A DNA stretch of 64,000 bases from Prolixibacteraceae bacterium (lineage in GTDB: Bacteria; Bacteroidota; Bacteroidia; Bacteroidales; Prolixibacteraceae): positions 1 to 64,000 of the forward strand of contig CANJNY010000002.1 of the NCBI GenBank assembly GCA_947475715.1, in the 5' to 3' direction. Both the position numbers and the translations under genes were made by a program. The notes beneath the pieces were generated by a model that saw nothing but the letters and a program-made list of their open reading frames with translations, was not told where the DNA came from and searched no databases. Positions 47,131 through 53,893 of this stretch are shown here, piece after piece (within the stretch, counting starts at the first letter, position 1; every line of letters starts with the position of its first letter).

Positions 47131-47841
47131 TTAACTTCTGTTATTAGTCAGGTTTGCAACTTTAATAAGTCCGGCAAGATTGATAATCTTGATTTTTCGT
47201 CCCTGAAGATCAATGAGTTTATCCTGTTTAAATTCAGACAAAAGTCGTATAATTGATTCGGTGGCCGTACCGACCGTATTGGCTAATTCTTCTCTGGTTA
47301 AAGAAATTTGTAGGGTTTGATCGGCATCCAGGTCGAAACTATCTTTAAGCAGTAGCAAGATCTCAGCCAGCCTTTCGCGGACTGTTTTCTGTGCAATATC
47401 AGTAATGTATTCATTAGCCTCTTTCAGTTCAGCACAAACAATTCGAAGCATTGCCAAAGCAAATGAGGAGTTCTTCTCAATGAGGTTAAGAAGCGTTTTA
47501 TAAGGGACGTGGCACAAAATGGCATCTTCAATAATTTTTGATGTTGTGCAGGCTGATTCCTGACTTAGCAGAGAACGATATGCAATAATATCCCCTTTTC
47601 TGGCGAACCGGATTATCTGCTCCTTACCATCAATACCTGTTTTGTAAACTTTTACGATTCCCCGAACTATACAGTAGAATCCGGTTAATCGACTCCCTTC
47701 CTTATAAATAATGCTCCCTTTTTTGAGAGAAGAACAAGTTTTTTCGTAGTTTAAACTTTTAAGTTCTTCGTCGCTTAAAGACTTAAAAAAGCGGAAACCG
47801 GATAAGGTAATATCATCCAATGGTTCAATTAGGTTTTTCAT
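47131..47841 (-). CDS. Crp/Fnr family transcription regulator
   Basis: A 236-residue regulator. The cyclic-nucleotide-like domain covers residues about 15-120 (FKSLSDEELKSL to VPYKTLLNLIEK). The C-terminal HTH_Crp domain contains LQISLTREELANTVGTATESIIRLLSEFKQDKLIDLQG, with the recognition helix ATESIIRLL. No Cys cluster for an Fnr-type iron-sulfur centre is evident; a single pair of cysteines is too far apart. The effector is unknown. It is divergent from the YceI gene, so it may control it. Confidence 0.93.
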   Translation of the reverse strand: MKNLIEPLDDITLSGFRFFKSLSDEELKSLNYEKTCSSLKKGSIIYKEGSRLTGFYCIVRGIVKVYKTGIDGKEQIIRFARKGDIIAYRSLLSQESACTTSKIIEDAILCHVPYKTLLNLIEKNSSFALAMLRIVCAELKEANEYITDIAQKTVRERLAEILLLLKDSFDLDADQTLQISLTREELANTVGTATESIIRLLSEFKQDKLIDLQGRKIKIINLAGLIKVANLTNNRS

Positions 47842-47862
47842 AATTTTTAGGAATTATGCGGT

Positions 47863-47870
47863 TATTTTTG
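47863..47870 (+). promoter_or_regulatory. Bacteroidota -7 element for the YceI gene
   Basis: TAttTTTG matches the -7 consensus. It lies 133 bases before the YceI ATG at 48004 and 22 bases from the divergent Crp/Fnr start. No -33 match was found. Confidence 0.4.
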
Positions 47871-48003
47871 TGCCATAAATATACGACTTAAATTTAATAG
47901 ATAAATCGTGTTAGTTTTAAAACAAATTGATATATGTCATTGTTATAAGCTTAAGCAAAAAACTATTAGTATTAATAATTATCTAAGATTAAAATCAGTA
48001 AAA

Positions 48004-48621
48004 ATGAGAAGTAAACTTACAATTTTGGGAAGAATTAGAGTATCTTTAGTCGTAATGACAGTGATACTGGCTGGCTTTAGTATGAAGGCTAATGCAATAG
48101 ATTATGTTGTTGATAAGGGAGTTAGCACAGTAAAGTGGGAAGCAAAAAAGGTAACAGGACAACACAATGGAACGATTTCGTTTGCCAATGGATCACTTTC
48201 TGCCACTAAAGCTGCTATAACTGGTGGAACTCTTGTTATTGATATGAAATCAATTGTTAATGTAGATCTTACCGATGCCGGATATAACAAAAAGCTTATT
48301 GGGCATCTATCTTCAGACGATTTTTTCGGAGTAGACAAATTTCCTGAAGCAACTTTGGTTGTTAAAAAAGCCACTTTAGTTTCGGGTGATGATTTTAAAA
48401 TTTCGGGTGACCTTACCATCAAAGGAGTTACTAATCCAATCGAGTTTAGTGCAAAGGTTAAGCAAAATGGTGACAAGTTGAATGCTGAAGGTGTTATGAC
48501 TGTAAACCGTGCAAAGTATGGTGTTAAATATGGTTCAAGTAGTTTTTTTCAGGGATTGGGTGACAAGGTAATTTATGATGATTTTACTTTGGCATTTAGT
48601 ATTGTTGCTCAAACGAAGTAA
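48004..48621 (+). CDS. YceI-like family protein (lipocalin-fold)
   Basis: The longer frame from 47908 lacks a signal, while ATG 48004 gives a good signal peptide (MRSKLTILGRIRVSLVVMTVILAGF, cleavage near KANA). The mature 180 residues are a YceI domain: YVVDKGVSTVKWEAKKVTGQHNGTI, LTDAGYNKKLIGHLSSDDFFGVDKFPEATLV, and DDFKISGDLTIKGVTNPIEFSAKV are the family marks. Members bind polyisoprenoid-type lipids in the periplasm or are stress proteins. It is followed by a strong terminator. Confidence 0.93.
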   Translation: MRSKLTILGRIRVSLVVMTVILAGFSMKANAIDYVVDKGVSTVKWEAKKVTGQHNGTISFANGSLSATKAAITGGTLVIDMKSIVNVDLTDAGYNKKLIGHLSSDDFFGVDKFPEATLVVKKATLVSGDDFKISGDLTIKGVTNPIEFSAKVKQNGDKLNAEGVMTVNRAKYGVKYGSSSFFQGLGDKVIYDDFTLAFSIVAQTK

Positions 48622-48644
48622 TAATTTTATTTTGTTTTTTTAAG

Positions 48645-48670
48645 GGATGCTCTAAGGAGCATCCTTTTTT
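48645..48670 (+). terminator. Rho-independent terminator after the YceI gene
   Basis: GGATGCTC/GAGCATCC form an 8-bp stem around a 4-base loop, immediately followed by six T bases. It ends 24 bases after the gene stop and isolates this transcript from the folM-like gene. Confidence 0.9.
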
Positions 48671-48718: not shown

Positions 48719-49438
48719 ATGTCTAAAGTAGCCTTGGTGTCAGGAAGTGCCGTGAGAATAGGTCGTGAAATTGCAAGTCATCTTGCTGAAATGGGGTGGG
48801 ATCTGGCCCTTCATTTCAACGCTTCATCGAAAGAAATTCATCGTTCTTCCAGTGAACTGAAACTAAGATTTCCAAATTTGCGTTTTGAGATTTTTCAAGC
48901 CAATTTAGGAGAGATTGATCAGGCAGAAAATCTTATTCGTGATGTTATAGCGCGGTTAGGATCTCTTGATCTTTTGATTAATAATGCATCCATTTTTGAA
49001 CCTTCATCATTAAAAGATACCACGAGCAGCCTGTTTTTAAAGCACACCATGGTTAATTATATTGCCCCTTTTATACTTATGCGTGATTTTGCAAAAAATC
49101 AAGATAAAGGTCAGATAATTAATATATTGGATACTCGAATAGCGACAAATGATAGCAACTATCTGGCATATTCACTTTCGAAAAAGTCGCTTTTTGAGCT
49201 GACCAAAATGGCTGCTCTTGAATTGGCTCCCAATTTTCGGGTTAATGCGATTGCTCCGGGGGCTGTTTTACCTCCGCCAGGAAAGGATCACTTGTATCTT
49301 AACCAGGTAGCTGGCAAAACTCCAATGAGAATTCCGTCAGGAATAGATTCTATATTTAAAACGCTTGATTATATTATTGACAATCAAGACATAACAGGCC
49401 AGGTTATTTATTGTGACGGAGGAGGTCATTTATTGTAA
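48719..49438 (+). CDS. folM: Pteridine-reductase-type SDR (FolM-like dihydromonapterin reductase)
   Basis: A 239-residue short-chain dehydrogenase. Two residues set it apart from generic SDRs: the NADP motif is SGSAVRIG with Arg13, and the catalytic centre has Asp138 (NILDTR) with Tyr151 and Lys155 (YSLSK). This Arg/Asp set is the pteridine reductase (PTR1/FolM) pattern, where Asp takes the place of the usual Ser. The neighbours are a FolX-like and a FolK-like gene, so reduction of dihydromonapterin to tetrahydromonapterin is a reasonable inference. Dihydrofolate reductase activity is an alternative. Confidence 0.8.
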   Translation: MSKVALVSGSAVRIGREIASHLAEMGWDLALHFNASSKEIHRSSSELKLRFPNLRFEIFQANLGEIDQAENLIRDVIARLGSLDLLINNASIFEPSSLKDTTSSLFLKHTMVNYIAPFILMRDFAKNQDKGQIINILDTRIATNDSNYLAYSLSKKSLFELTKMAALELAPNFRVNAIAPGAVLPPPGKDHLYLNQVAGKTPMRIPSGIDSIFKTLDYIIDNQDITGQVIYCDGGGHLL

Positions 49439-49467
49439 TTTTTCATTTAAATAGTTCAAATTTTTTT

Positions 49468-49815
49468 ATGGCAGTCATACGAATTAAAAACTTACTTATT
49501 CCTACAATTATAGGATTTAATCCTGAAGAGCGGATCAATCTTCAGGATGTTATTATCAATCTTGAGATTGAGGTTGATATTTCAAAAGCTGTAATTACGG
49601 ATCATCAGGATTCGATTTATAATTATAAGACGATAACCAAATCAATAATTTCCTTTGTATCGGAGAGCAACTATAATTTACTTGAGAAATTGAGTTATGA
49701 GGTATTGCGAATGATTATGGAGGATGAGCGTGTATTAAGGGCCAAAGTAGAAATTGACAAACCGAAGGCACTTAGATTTTCAGATTCAGTTTCGGTTGAA
49801 TTAGAGGCAAAACGG
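49468..49815 (+). CDS. folX: Dihydroneopterin triphosphate 2'-epimerase / dihydroneopterin aldolase family (FolX-like)
   Basis: A 116-residue tunnel-fold protein of the FolB/FolX family. It is more like E. coli FolX than FolB by memory: IRIKNLLIPTIIGFNPEER, YNYKTITKSIISFV, YNLLEKLSYEVLRMI and VEIDKPKALRFSDSVSVEL all follow the FolX pattern. FolX epimerises dihydroneopterin triphosphate to the monapterin form. If FolB, it would instead cleave dihydroneopterin for folate. The folM-like gene 30 bases upstream favours the monapterin route. It overlaps the next gene's start (TGATG). Confidence 0.82.
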
Positions 49816-49817
49816 TG

Positions 49818-50189
49818 ATGTATCACGAATGTATTATAGGGATCGGATCAAATATTGATGCAGATCAAAACTTTGCAGCGGTACTTTTTTTTCTTCGTCA
49901 GGAGCATCAGCTGATAGCTGTTTCCTCCAGGATAAAAACAGTTCCGATCGGTATTATAGAACAGCCGGATTTTTTAAATGGTGCAGCAAAGGTTTCCACT
50001 CAACTTGAGCAAGCGGCTTTTCAATCTTATTTAAAGAATCTGGAAGATCGGCTTAAACGTGATCGTTCTGCGCCAAAGTTCGGACCCAGGACCATTGATC
50101 TGGACATCGTGGTTTGGGACAGTGAGATTATCGACTTGGATTATTACGAACGTGATTTTTTAAAAGCTGTTGTTGATGAGATATTTTGA
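49818..50189 (+). CDS. Short HPPK-like protein (FolK family)
   Basis: A 123-residue member of the 6-hydroxymethyl-7,8-dihydropterin pyrophosphokinase family, starting at ATG 49818 inside the folX TGATG overlap (a GTG at 49815 is less likely). It has GIGSNID and FLNGAAKVST near the N-terminus and the pyrophosphokinase core RDRSAPKFGPRTIDLDIVVW with the two metal Asp residues. The region that in E. coli FolK holds the PH motif (with the proton-relay His) reads LDYYERDFLKAVVDEI and ends early, about 35 residues short. It may act on a monapterin-type pterin or have lost activity. A full-length folK elsewhere is expected. Confidence 0.72.
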   Translation: MYHECIIGIGSNIDADQNFAAVLFFLRQEHQLIAVSSRIKTVPIGIIEQPDFLNGAAKVSTQLEQAAFQSYLKNLEDRLKRDRSAPKFGPRTIDLDIVVWDSEIIDLDYYERDFLKAVVDEIF

Positions 50190-50224: not shown

Positions 50225-53200
50225 TTATTTATAACTCAGATTAGAAGGGAGAAATTTCTCGATGTATTCAATGGCTACATTCTTCCGTTTAGCAAAGTCT
50301 GCAATCTGATCTTTCTCTACTTTTTCCAATCCAAAATAGACTGCATTTGGATGGGCGAAATACTGGCCGCATACCGAAGCAGTAGGGTACATTGAAAAAT
50401 GTTCTGTAAGGTGGATATCTGCTTTTTCAGAAGCACCCAACATATCGAATAATACTTTCTTTTCAGAGTGTTCCGGGCAAGCAGGGTATCCGGCTGCAGG
50501 TCTGATGCCCTGGTATTTGCAATTAATCAGGTCAAGGGGGGATAAATTTTCATTGGGGGCATAACCCCAGAATTCTTTTCTAACTCTTTCGTGCAGACGT
50601 TCTGCAAATGCTTCTGCAAGACGGTCGGCCAGGGATTCAAGTAAAATGGCCTGATAATCATTCCCCTCCTTTTTGAATTTTTCGACCCATTCAGCTACAC
50701 CAATACCTGCCGTTACTGCGAATCCTCCGCAATAATCGGCGATACCTGAATTTTTAGGAGCGACAAAATCGCTAAGGCAATAGTTTGGCAGATTAGCGGC
50801 TCTTTTTTGCTGTTGGCGCAGGTGATGGAAGGTTCCCGCTATTGCTTGCCGACTTTCGTCAGAATACAGCTCGATATCGTCTCCTAAAGTGTTTGCTGGC
50901 CAGATGCCGACGACCCCTTTTGCGGCAATCATTTTTTTTGCAATGATTTCGTCAAGAAAATGATTTGCCTCGTCGTATAGCTTTCGTACTTCAGCACCCT
51001 GTTTCGGATCATCAAAAATGGCAGGAAATTTTCCCCTGAATTCCCAGGCAATAAAGAAGAATGTCCAATCGATATAATGTCTTAATTCTTCGAGTGGGTA
51101 GTTGTCAAAAACCTGAATTCCTGTTTTCACAGGAGGATAGACCATTGAATCGTTCCAGCCGGGATTAAAGGCATTTTTACGTGCATTTGCAAGCGATAAA
51201 TATTCCTTTGGTTTCTTTGCGCTGTGAGTCGCGCGCAATTCCTTATATTCGGTTTTTATGGACTCGAGGTAATCTTTATCTTTTGCTAAAAGGCTCGAGA
51301 CAACCTGGACAGCACGGGATGCATCTTTAACATATACAACTGTTTGGCTATATTGGGGGGCAATTTTTACTGCGGTATGGATCTTTGAAGTGGTGGCACC
51401 TCCGATCATCAGGGGAACTTTAAAACCTCGGCGCTCCATTTCGTGAGCTACGTGTGCCATCTCTTCGAGCGAAGGGGTTATCAGGCCACTTAGACCTATA
51501 ATATCAGCATTTTCTTCAATGGCTTTATCCAGAATTTTTTCAGCCGGGACCATTACTCCAAGGTCAATAACGTCGTAATTATTGCATGCGAGCACGACTC
51601 CGACGATGTTTTTCCCGATATCGTGAACGTCGCCCTTTACGGTAGCCATCAGGATTTTCTTTTTCTCGGTGGGTGCCTGTTTCAGATCGAGTTTATCCTG
51701 TTCAATATAAGGTTGTAAAAAAGCAACGGCTTTTTTCATTACCCGGGCTGATTTAATTACCTGTGGAAGAAACATTTTACCGCTTCCAAACAGATCACCA
51801 ACCCGATTCATTCCGTCCATTAAGGGTTCTTCAATTACCCTGATTGCGCTGTTATATTCCGGAAGTAATTCAGCAATATCTTCTTCGATAAATTCAGTAA
51901 TTCCTTTAATAAGAGCATGTTGTATTCTTTCTTTCACATCTTGCAGGCGCCACTCCTCGGTTTTCTCCTCTTTTTTGCCACGGGCAGCGATATTTTCGGA
52001 GAAGGCAAGGATTCGTTCAGTCGAATCTGCTCTGCGGTTTAGTATTACATCCTCGACATATTCGAGCAAGTCTTTTGGAATCTCGTCGTAAATTTGCAAC
52101 ATTCCTGGATTTACGATTCCCATATCCAGTCCTGCAGCAATTGCATGATAAAGAAATACGGAATGAAATGCTTCGCGGATTGTGTTATTGCCACGGAACG
52201 AGAATGATACGTTAGAAATTCCGCCGCTTACTTTGGCATATGGCAGATTTTCCTTGATCCATTTGGTGGCTTTGATAAAATCGAGGGCGTAGTTATTGTG
52301 TTCCTCAATTCCGGTACCCACTGTTAAAACGTTTGGATCAAAGATTATATCTTGTGGTGGAAAGTGAACCTCATTAACCAGGATGTCGTAAGCACGTTTA
52401 CAAATCCGAATCCGATCTTCCAAAGTCGAAGCTTGTCCCTTTTCGTCGAATGCCATAATGACGGCTGCTGCACCATATTTCTTTATTTTGCGGGCGCACT
52501 CCTTAAAAAGCTCTTCCCCTTCTTTAAGGCTAATTGAATTTACAATTGCTTTACCTTGAAGGCATTGTAAACCAGCTTCAATGACCGACCACTTTGATGA
52601 ATCGACCATTACAGGAAGTTTGGCCATATCGGGTTCTGACATTAACAGGTGCAGAAAGCGGACCATTTCTTTTTCAGCGTCAAGCATTGCGTCGTCCATA
52701 TTGACATCGATTACCTGTGCACCTCCATCGACCATTTCGCGTGCGATAGCCAGAGCTTCCTCATATTTTTCTTCCCGAATAAGCCTTGCGAATTTAATTG
52801 ATCCTGCTACATTACATCGTTCACCGATATTAATAAAGTTTGTATTTTTGTCAACAGTGAGTGGTTCAAGCCCGCTTAATCGGGTTGCAATTTCAGGTTT
52901 GGTGGGTTTATGAGGCTTTGCTTTGGCTGCCAGAAATGCCAATTCCCGGATGTGCTCGGGGGTCGTTCCACAGCATCCTCCAATAATATTCACCATGCGG
53001 CCTTCGAAGAAATCCTGAACATAAACGCCCATCATTTGAGGAGTTTCGTCATACTCTCCAAATTGGTTCGGCAATCCTGCATTTGGGTGAGCACTGATAT
53101 AGAAAGGGGCCTTACGGCTAAGTTCCTCAAGATATGGGCGCAACTCTTTAGCACCTAAGGAGCAGTTTAGTCCTATTGTCAGTAGATTAATATGCGATAA

Positions 53201-53893
53201 TGAGTTAAGAAATGCTTCAACCGTTTGACCGGATAGGGTTCTTCCGCTGGCATCGGTGATGGTTCCGGAGATCATCACATCAACTGTAATTTTTCTGCTT
53301 TCAAGGACTTCCTCAATGGCCATCATGGCTGCTTTTGCATTTAGGGTGTCGAAGATTGTCTCTACCAGTAGGATATCGACACCGCCGTCTAGCAGACCCT
53401 CTACCTGTTCGTGATATGATTCTTTCATTTCAGCGAAGGTGATGGCTCGGTATCCGGCGTCATTTACATCGGGCGACATTGAACACGTTTTGTTCGTTGG
53501 TCCGATAGCACCTGCAACATAGCGAGGTTTATCCGGAGTTGAGTATTTTAGAGCTGCTTCGTGTGCAATTTGTGCTGAGCATTTATTGATCTCATAAACA
53601 TATTCTTCCAAGCCATAATCAGCCTGGGAGACACGAGTGGCATTAAAGGTATTTGTTGCAACGATATCTGCACCTGCTTCAAGGAAGCCTTCATGAATTT
53701 CCCGAATTACTGAAGGTCTGGTGATTGAAAGAAGGTCGTTATCCCCTTTTAGGGGTGAAGGCCATGTTATAAAACGGTCGCCACGAAAATCTTCTTCTGT
53801 TAATTTTACCCGTTGAATCATTGTTCCCATTGCGCCATCCAGCACCAGAATCCGATGTTTCAATTCCTTCCGTATATTGCTTTCTCTAATCAT
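50225..53893 (-). CDS. metH: Cobalamin-dependent methionine synthase
   Basis: Transfers a methyl group from methyltetrahydrofolate to homocysteine using cobalamin. The 1222 residues form all four modules: the homocysteine domain with zinc ligands Cys244 and Cys307/Cys308 ([13 protein letters not shown]), the pterin domain ([15 protein letters not shown] and [13 protein letters not shown]-type segment), the B12 domain with the cobalt-ligand motif [11 protein letters not shown] near residue 760 and the [11 protein letters not shown] region, and the AdoMet activation domain with [15 protein letters not shown]. It is complete. The coding strand is visibly more GC-rich than the preceding genes. 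A long 5' leader runs to a promoter at 54151. Confidence 0.98.

Follow-up and report, generated by a model that had tools for sequence, protein, structure and literature searches.

Does a cluster of FolM-, FolX- and FolK-like genes in a member of the Prolixibacteraceae serve folate synthesis, or does it make a different pterin? The window analysed here is the whole stretch of 64,000 nucleotides from the start of contig CANJNY010000002.1 (assembly GCA_947475715.1). At positions 48719–50189 it carries genes for a FolM-like short-chain dehydrogenase/reductase (SDR), a FolX-like protein and a short homologue of hydroxymethyldihydropterin pyrophosphokinase (HPPK, the FolK family). We found that this trio is not the folate operon of its genome, and it is quite probably a dedicated non-folate tetrahydropterin module. 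Its most interesting part is the short HPPK, which by sequence belongs to a distinct HPPK branch spread across phyla.

All three open reading frames are present where the initial annotation had placed them:

48719–49438, forward strand: FolM/PTR/PruA-like pteridine reductase (SDR), 239 amino acids, motif SGSAVRIG, catalytic D138/Y151/K155
49468–49818, forward strand: FolX-like protein (dihydroneopterin triphosphate 2'-epimerase family), 116 amino acids, assigned by profile, PDB and tree
49818–50189, forward strand (ATG at 49818, or GTG at 49815): short HPPK, 123 amino acids (123–124 by start choice), assigned by PF01288, TIGR01498 and predicted fold

The HPPK start overlaps the folX stop, either as TGATG with the ATG at 49818 or with the GTG at 49815, in line with the translational coupling proposed earlier, and a four-base stop/start overlap of these two genes is the commonest layout among relatives. 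Gene order and strand of the trio were kept in the relatives examined, therefore the cluster is not a chance reading.

The trio lies apart from the folate genes

In the assembly (5.77 Mb, 98.9% complete) the canonical folate genes were detected on other contigs, with folB on C11, a full-length folK (166 amino acids) on C20, folE on C34 and folP on C100. Because all four lie elsewhere, the trio is not this genome's folate operon, and an ordinary folate operon was ruled out as an explanation of the locus; the short HPPK is an extra pyrophosphokinase homologue, as had been suggested. A partial second folP on C113, considered as a partner for a pyrophosphorylated pterin, was rejected as a strain or assembly duplicate. 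It shares 95% DNA identity with the C100 copy and both sit at contig ends, which points to a strain mixture in the assembly.

FolM-like and FolX-like proteins

The pteridine reductase residues that the initial annotation had picked out in the SDR are as it gave them, with Arg13, Tyr151 and Lys155 conserved in 76 of 76 aligned homologues (E. coli FolM included) and Asp138 in 75. The protein has the TGX3RXG-type Arg motif, with Ser for the motif Thr, together with the Asp/Tyr/Lys catalytic residues. The closest PDB structures are of Brucella FolM/PruA type, 5TGD (8e-32) and also 5BT9, and the top NCBIfam matches are PRK09134 and pteridine reductase, both under the strict cut-offs.

The middle protein scored 129.9 bits against the NCBIfam FolX model versus 62.3 and 40.2 bits against two FolB models, and matched FolX structures in the PDB (4AEY/1B9L) at 1e-23 to 1e-25 versus about 1e-6 for FolB. 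An unrooted PF02152 tree, which took in the separate FolBs from the same genomes, placed the trio proteins together with E. coli and P. aeruginosa FolX, apart from both the Bacteroidota FolB clade (branch 2.2, support 100/100) and the proteobacterial one (100/99). Profile, PDB and tree thus ruled out FolB, which shares only the PF02152 family with the middle protein, and the earlier reading as FolX held up; on this assignment the protein is a putative epimerase. The middle protein does not cluster with the FolB aldolases, and with a separate folB and full-length folK in the genome the cluster does not hold its only aldolase and pyrophosphokinase.

A short HPPK branch without the adenine segment

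The short HPPK matched PF01288 with 78.2 bits (cut-off 25.7). An alignment and tree of 44 short and 29 long HPPKs, the latter mostly from the same genomes, were examined with E. coli FolK as the residue reference, and the short and long forms fell into two groups (support 98/97). The equivalent of E. coli residues 110–117, the adenine-contact segment with the PHP/PHY motif, is gapped in all 44 short HPPKs and present in all 29 long ones. In S. aureus HPPK, adenine H2/H8 give nuclear Overhauser effects with the amides of residues 98, 111 and 112, in agreement with the ternary complex of the E. coli enzyme (PMC3261883). Residues R82, R92, D95, D97, E77, N55 and T42 are kept in every short HPPK, and position 123, the pterin residue F123 in E. 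coli, is F or Y. Basic residues have been gained at position 70 (K/R in at least 28 of the 44), 74 (41) and 125 (36). The window protein is also without the C-terminal tail after about residue 132 (E. coli numbering).

An AlphaFold2 model of the short HPPK (mean predicted local distance difference test score 96.2) superposed over all 123 residues on E. coli HPPK, up to residue 132 (Z 18.6, root-mean-square deviation 1.6–1.7). Because segment 110–117 is deleted, the catalytic residues are kept and the model superposes up to E. coli residue 132, alignment and model together indicate that the short HPPK is an HPPK catalytic core minus the adenine segment and the C-terminal tail. A truncated or degenerate FolK was ruled out, since none of the catalytic residues varies and the short forms of different phyla make up a single group. 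Branching within the short set does not cleanly track phyla. A Nitrosomonas short HPPK is nested within the Bacteroidota, a placement suggesting that horizontal transfer has occurred, and the FolX and short HPPK of Nitrosomonas marina and N. aestuarii (L063, L077), which have no adjacent SDR, were likely acquired in this way.

Distribution and gene neighbourhood

Within the GTDB family the short HPPK (at least 114 bits) was detected in 37 of 49 genomes, this one included, and in all 30 family loci fetched the SDR and FolX adjoin it; outside the family, 2 of 32 genomes of the order gave a clear match. An even sample of 198 Bacteroidota yielded a full-length short HPPK (E up to 1e-18) in this genome only; the other matches scored 69–92 bits, extended over roughly the first 106 positions and lay almost without exception in long frames the size of FolK. 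The short HPPK is hence rare in Bacteroidota and normal in the family, so the statement that such a cluster is unusual in this phylum stands for the phylum (1 of 198 genomes) and fails for the family.

A scan with the family alignment gave 541 matches, of which the best 80 were kept. These come from about ten phyla and include Halomonadaceae, Nitrosomonas, Colwelliaceae, Porticoccus, Thiotrichaceae, Ectothiorhodospiraceae, Omnitrophota, Glassbacteria, Dadabacteria, Binatota, an anammox planctomycete, Verrucomicrobiota, Manganitrophaceae and Chitinivibrionales. With the same module in so many phyla, it is not a Bacteroidota oddity. Among the 80 loci a FolM-like SDR lies within 3 kb of the short HPPK in 74 and FolX within 2.5 kb in 64; both partners are found at 59 loci, the SDR alone at 15, FolX alone at 5 and neither at one. 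The folE gene is immediately upstream in Omnitrophota, Colwelliaceae, Verrucomicrobiota and Ectothiorhodospiraceae, and one locus of the last group (L118) has the order folE-folM-short HPPK with folX absent. The short HPPK is the one extra gene recurring with FolE, FolX and FolM, and a long FolK is also encoded in 24 of 25 module genomes across phyla, the exception being a metagenome-assembled genome. Downstream of the pterin operon in Omnitrophota L105, L111, L114 and L138 come a further SDR gene and a 3-oxoacyl-acyl carrier protein (ACP) synthase II-like gene, with an ACP-like gene between the two in L105; these are fatty-acid synthesis genes.

Further HPPK variants were seen outside the module. 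Other Bacteroidales families have an orphan HPPK of about 125 amino acids with no SDR or FolX adjoining:

L037, 6255–6662, forward strand: orphan HPPK
L038, 6591–6962, reverse strand: orphan HPPK
L039, 5628–6026, reverse strand: orphan HPPK
L040, 6483–6863, reverse strand: orphan HPPK
L041, 1–402, forward strand: orphan HPPK
L042, 6019–6405, reverse strand: orphan HPPK

These proteins are without the GPR motif (E. coli R92), the four included in the tree cluster as a single group on the side of the short HPPKs, and the orphan proteins are possibly inactive or repurposed. In Gammaproteobacteria (L163, L166, L167, L168) a further long HPPK, with motif PR for PH, lies directly downstream of folB; these form a separate long-branch group in the tree.

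Proposed pathway and competing explanations

FolX is known to epimerise the pterin triphosphate, and FolM and PruA to reduce dihydropterins to tetrahydropterins (PMC1971073, PMC13259868). According to an earlier report, the gene that dephosphorylates the pterin triphosphate had not been identified for most genomes (PMC1971073); E. coli is reported to use a Nudix enzyme for neopterin triphosphate (PMC5526541). The overall explanation we favour, to which we give an even chance, is that the trio is a pterin module apart from folate in which the short HPPK acts on a pterin triphosphate. FolE, encoded elsewhere in this genome and by the first operon gene in several phyla, would supply 7,8-dihydroneopterin triphosphate, which FolX would epimerise to 7,8-dihydromonapterin triphosphate. 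The short HPPK would then remove or transfer phosphates from the pterin's own triphosphate, instead of taking pyrophosphate from ATP, and in a last step the FolM-like SDR would use NADPH to reduce the dihydropterin to a tetrahydropterin, most likely tetrahydromonapterin, which is probably the product of the module. All substrates, the product and the way in which the HPPK reaction runs are what we infer. Action on the pterin's own triphosphate is suggested because the pterin site and the Mg2+/arginine centre for pyrophosphoryl transfer are kept and the base-holding part is lost. The case for the short HPPK as the phosphate remover is chemical and positional. At L118, with no folX, dephosphorylation would be the only chemistry missing from GTP to tetrahydropterin. 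The placement of the short HPPK between FolX and FolM for this purpose is put forward tentatively, at somewhat less than even chances. A broader version, which we regard as rather speculative, is that a widespread and ancient sister family of HPPK gave up ATP and became a pterin-triphosphate phosphohydrolase or phosphotransferase in a GTP-to-tetrahydropterin pathway across about ten phyla. The role of its product would possibly be non-oxygen-dependent, because most sampled module members are without an aromatic amino acid hydroxylase.

The main competing explanation, which we think fairly unlikely, is that the short HPPK does work as a pyrophosphokinase but has changed its donor or acceptor, activating a monapterin- or hydroxymethyl-type (tetrahydro)pterin that is later joined to something to give a modified pterin. 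The whole transfer centre and the pterin pocket are conserved, as expected for an active kinase, and the predicted fold superposes on HPPK ternary complexes at 1.5–1.7 Å. However, the adenine-holding loop is missing in every short member (44 of 44), the module contains no second dihydropteroate synthase-like transferase, and the partial second folP of this genome is the 95%-identical contig-end duplicate described above. Less likely again, it appears, is an auxiliary folate route in which the FolX-like protein would function as an aldolase and the short HPPK would be an additional FolK, used for instance under stress, as has been suggested for other duplicates of folK. FolX does have slow aldolase activity (PMC1971073), folK is often duplicated (14% of genomes; PMC4814558), and the trio FolX-like protein is the sole PF02152 protein of the genome in Omnitrophota, Dadabacteria, Binatota and several others; being the only one, it may also act there as the folate aldolase, or that step may fall to another aldolase family. 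This route nevertheless leaves the FolM partner (74 of 80 loci) and the universal loss of the adenine segment unexplained, the described duplicates adjoin panB or folB and not folM/folX, and the canonical folate genes of this genome are complete.

The initial annotation had also linked the pathway to tetrahydromonapterin as the cofactor of an aromatic amino acid hydroxylase, and in its classic form, with the short HPPK incidental, this explanation has a precedent in E. coli and P. aeruginosa (Pribat 2010, as represented in papers citing it). Here that link did not survive. PF00351, the aromatic amino acid hydroxylase family, is absent from this genome (at 98.9% completeness) and from all 60 family genomes searched, and was found in 2 of the 25 module genomes across phyla, both Colwelliaceae, leaving 23 without it; PF01329, the carbinolamine dehydratase family, was found neither in this genome nor in the four further members of the genus that were sampled. 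A phenylalanine hydroxylase cofactor role was ruled out for this family, where the classic explanation is largely refuted, and as an account of the module it is highly improbable.

Several observations weigh against a phosphate-removing short HPPK in a dedicated tetrahydropterin module. We know of no phosphohydrolase with the HPPK fold, and ATP binding might survive the loss of the loop. The folK model TIGR01498 accepts the short HPPK as FolK (73.7 bits, cut-off 54.1). The SDR falls short of the pteridine and dihydromonapterin reductase equivalog cut-offs (167.5 versus 288 and 99.5 versus 249 bits) and the middle protein of the FolX one (129.9 versus 152 bits), though this is its best match. 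The many module genomes outside Bacteroidota in which the FolX-like protein of the trio is the sole PF02152 protein, and may there contribute to folate synthesis as well, count here too. In Halomonadaceae, Porticoccus and others the SDR and short HPPK have no FolX nearby, and in the three genomes checked (two of Halomonadaceae, one of Porticoccus) the single PF02152 protein belongs to the FolB group, therefore the product need not be monapterin everywhere. No consumer of the module product was found, in a survey that did not extend to PruR/DcpA homologues.

Genes surrounding the trio

The neighbouring features in the window are as follows:

47131–48621: CRP/FNR-family regulator and YceI gene, on the upstream side of the trio
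47131–47841, reverse strand: the CRP/FNR-family regulator, divergent, upstream of the YceI gene, by profile matches
48642–48667, forward strand: terminator-like hairpin in the gap between the YceI gene and the trio, 11-pair stem, consensus match only
50225–53893: metH, convergent, directly downstream of the trio

The terminator-like hairpin between the YceI gene and the trio suggests that the trio is a separate transcription unit. A riboswitch preceding it was ruled out, as an Rfam search of the sequence before the trio gave no riboswitch match. Judging by neighbourhood, control of the trio by the CRP/FNR-family regulator is possible. The regulator and the YceI gene occupy the same position in close relatives, and in two more genera of more distant family members a CRP homologue lies divergently beside the trio, without YceI. 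The metH product is a pterin-binding enzyme, and the position of metH next to the trio is conserved across the genus.

Relation to known systems

The open-access literature yielded no account of the short HPPK branch or of a folM-folX-short folK module, and the branch is apparently undescribed; the parts are known, and the combination is a variant with a short HPPK. Operons of folM-folE-folX are known in Pseudomonas (PMC9758184). The FolX-FolM pathway of E. coli and P. aeruginosa, and the P. mendocina operon of this type, likewise combine both enzyme families in a single operon, in some cases together with FolE, but P. mendocina-type operons contain no HPPK, whereas here the short HPPK is the third gene and a phenylalanine hydroxylase is lacking. 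In E. coli, tetrahydromonapterin is listed as a dead-end metabolite (PMC3781023). Agrobacterium PruA, involved in pterin signalling, is likewise a FolM-like SDR with an Arg-containing motif and turns dihydropterins into tetrahydropterins with no known hydroxylase role (PMC13259868); the Brucella FolM/PruA-type proteins closest to the window SDR among solved structures fit this likeness. However, PruA is described with the partners PruR and DcpA, and linkage to FolX and a short HPPK is not part of the PruA system.

Duplicates of folK, surveyed in 2007 (PMC1971073) and 2016 (PMC4814558), were linked to panB or folB. Clustering of folM with pterin-branch genes was noted in 2007, as was the folK1/folK2 pair of Xylella, whose genome also carries folM (PMC1971073). 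Second folK copies are known, and FolK and these duplicates share the fold and catalytic residues of the short HPPK, but the latter differs in forming a separate clade without E. coli residues 110–117 and the C-terminal tail, and in its linkage to folM/folX/folE.

Implications

Automatic annotation labels the short HPPK as FolK, hence folate capacity has probably been misassigned in many genomes. A conserved operon in about ten phyla that places a deviant HPPK with FolE, FolX and FolM is a candidate for the missing dephosphorylation step, and its occurrence means that bacteria without a phenylalanine hydroxylase invest in what is probably a dedicated tetrahydropterin.
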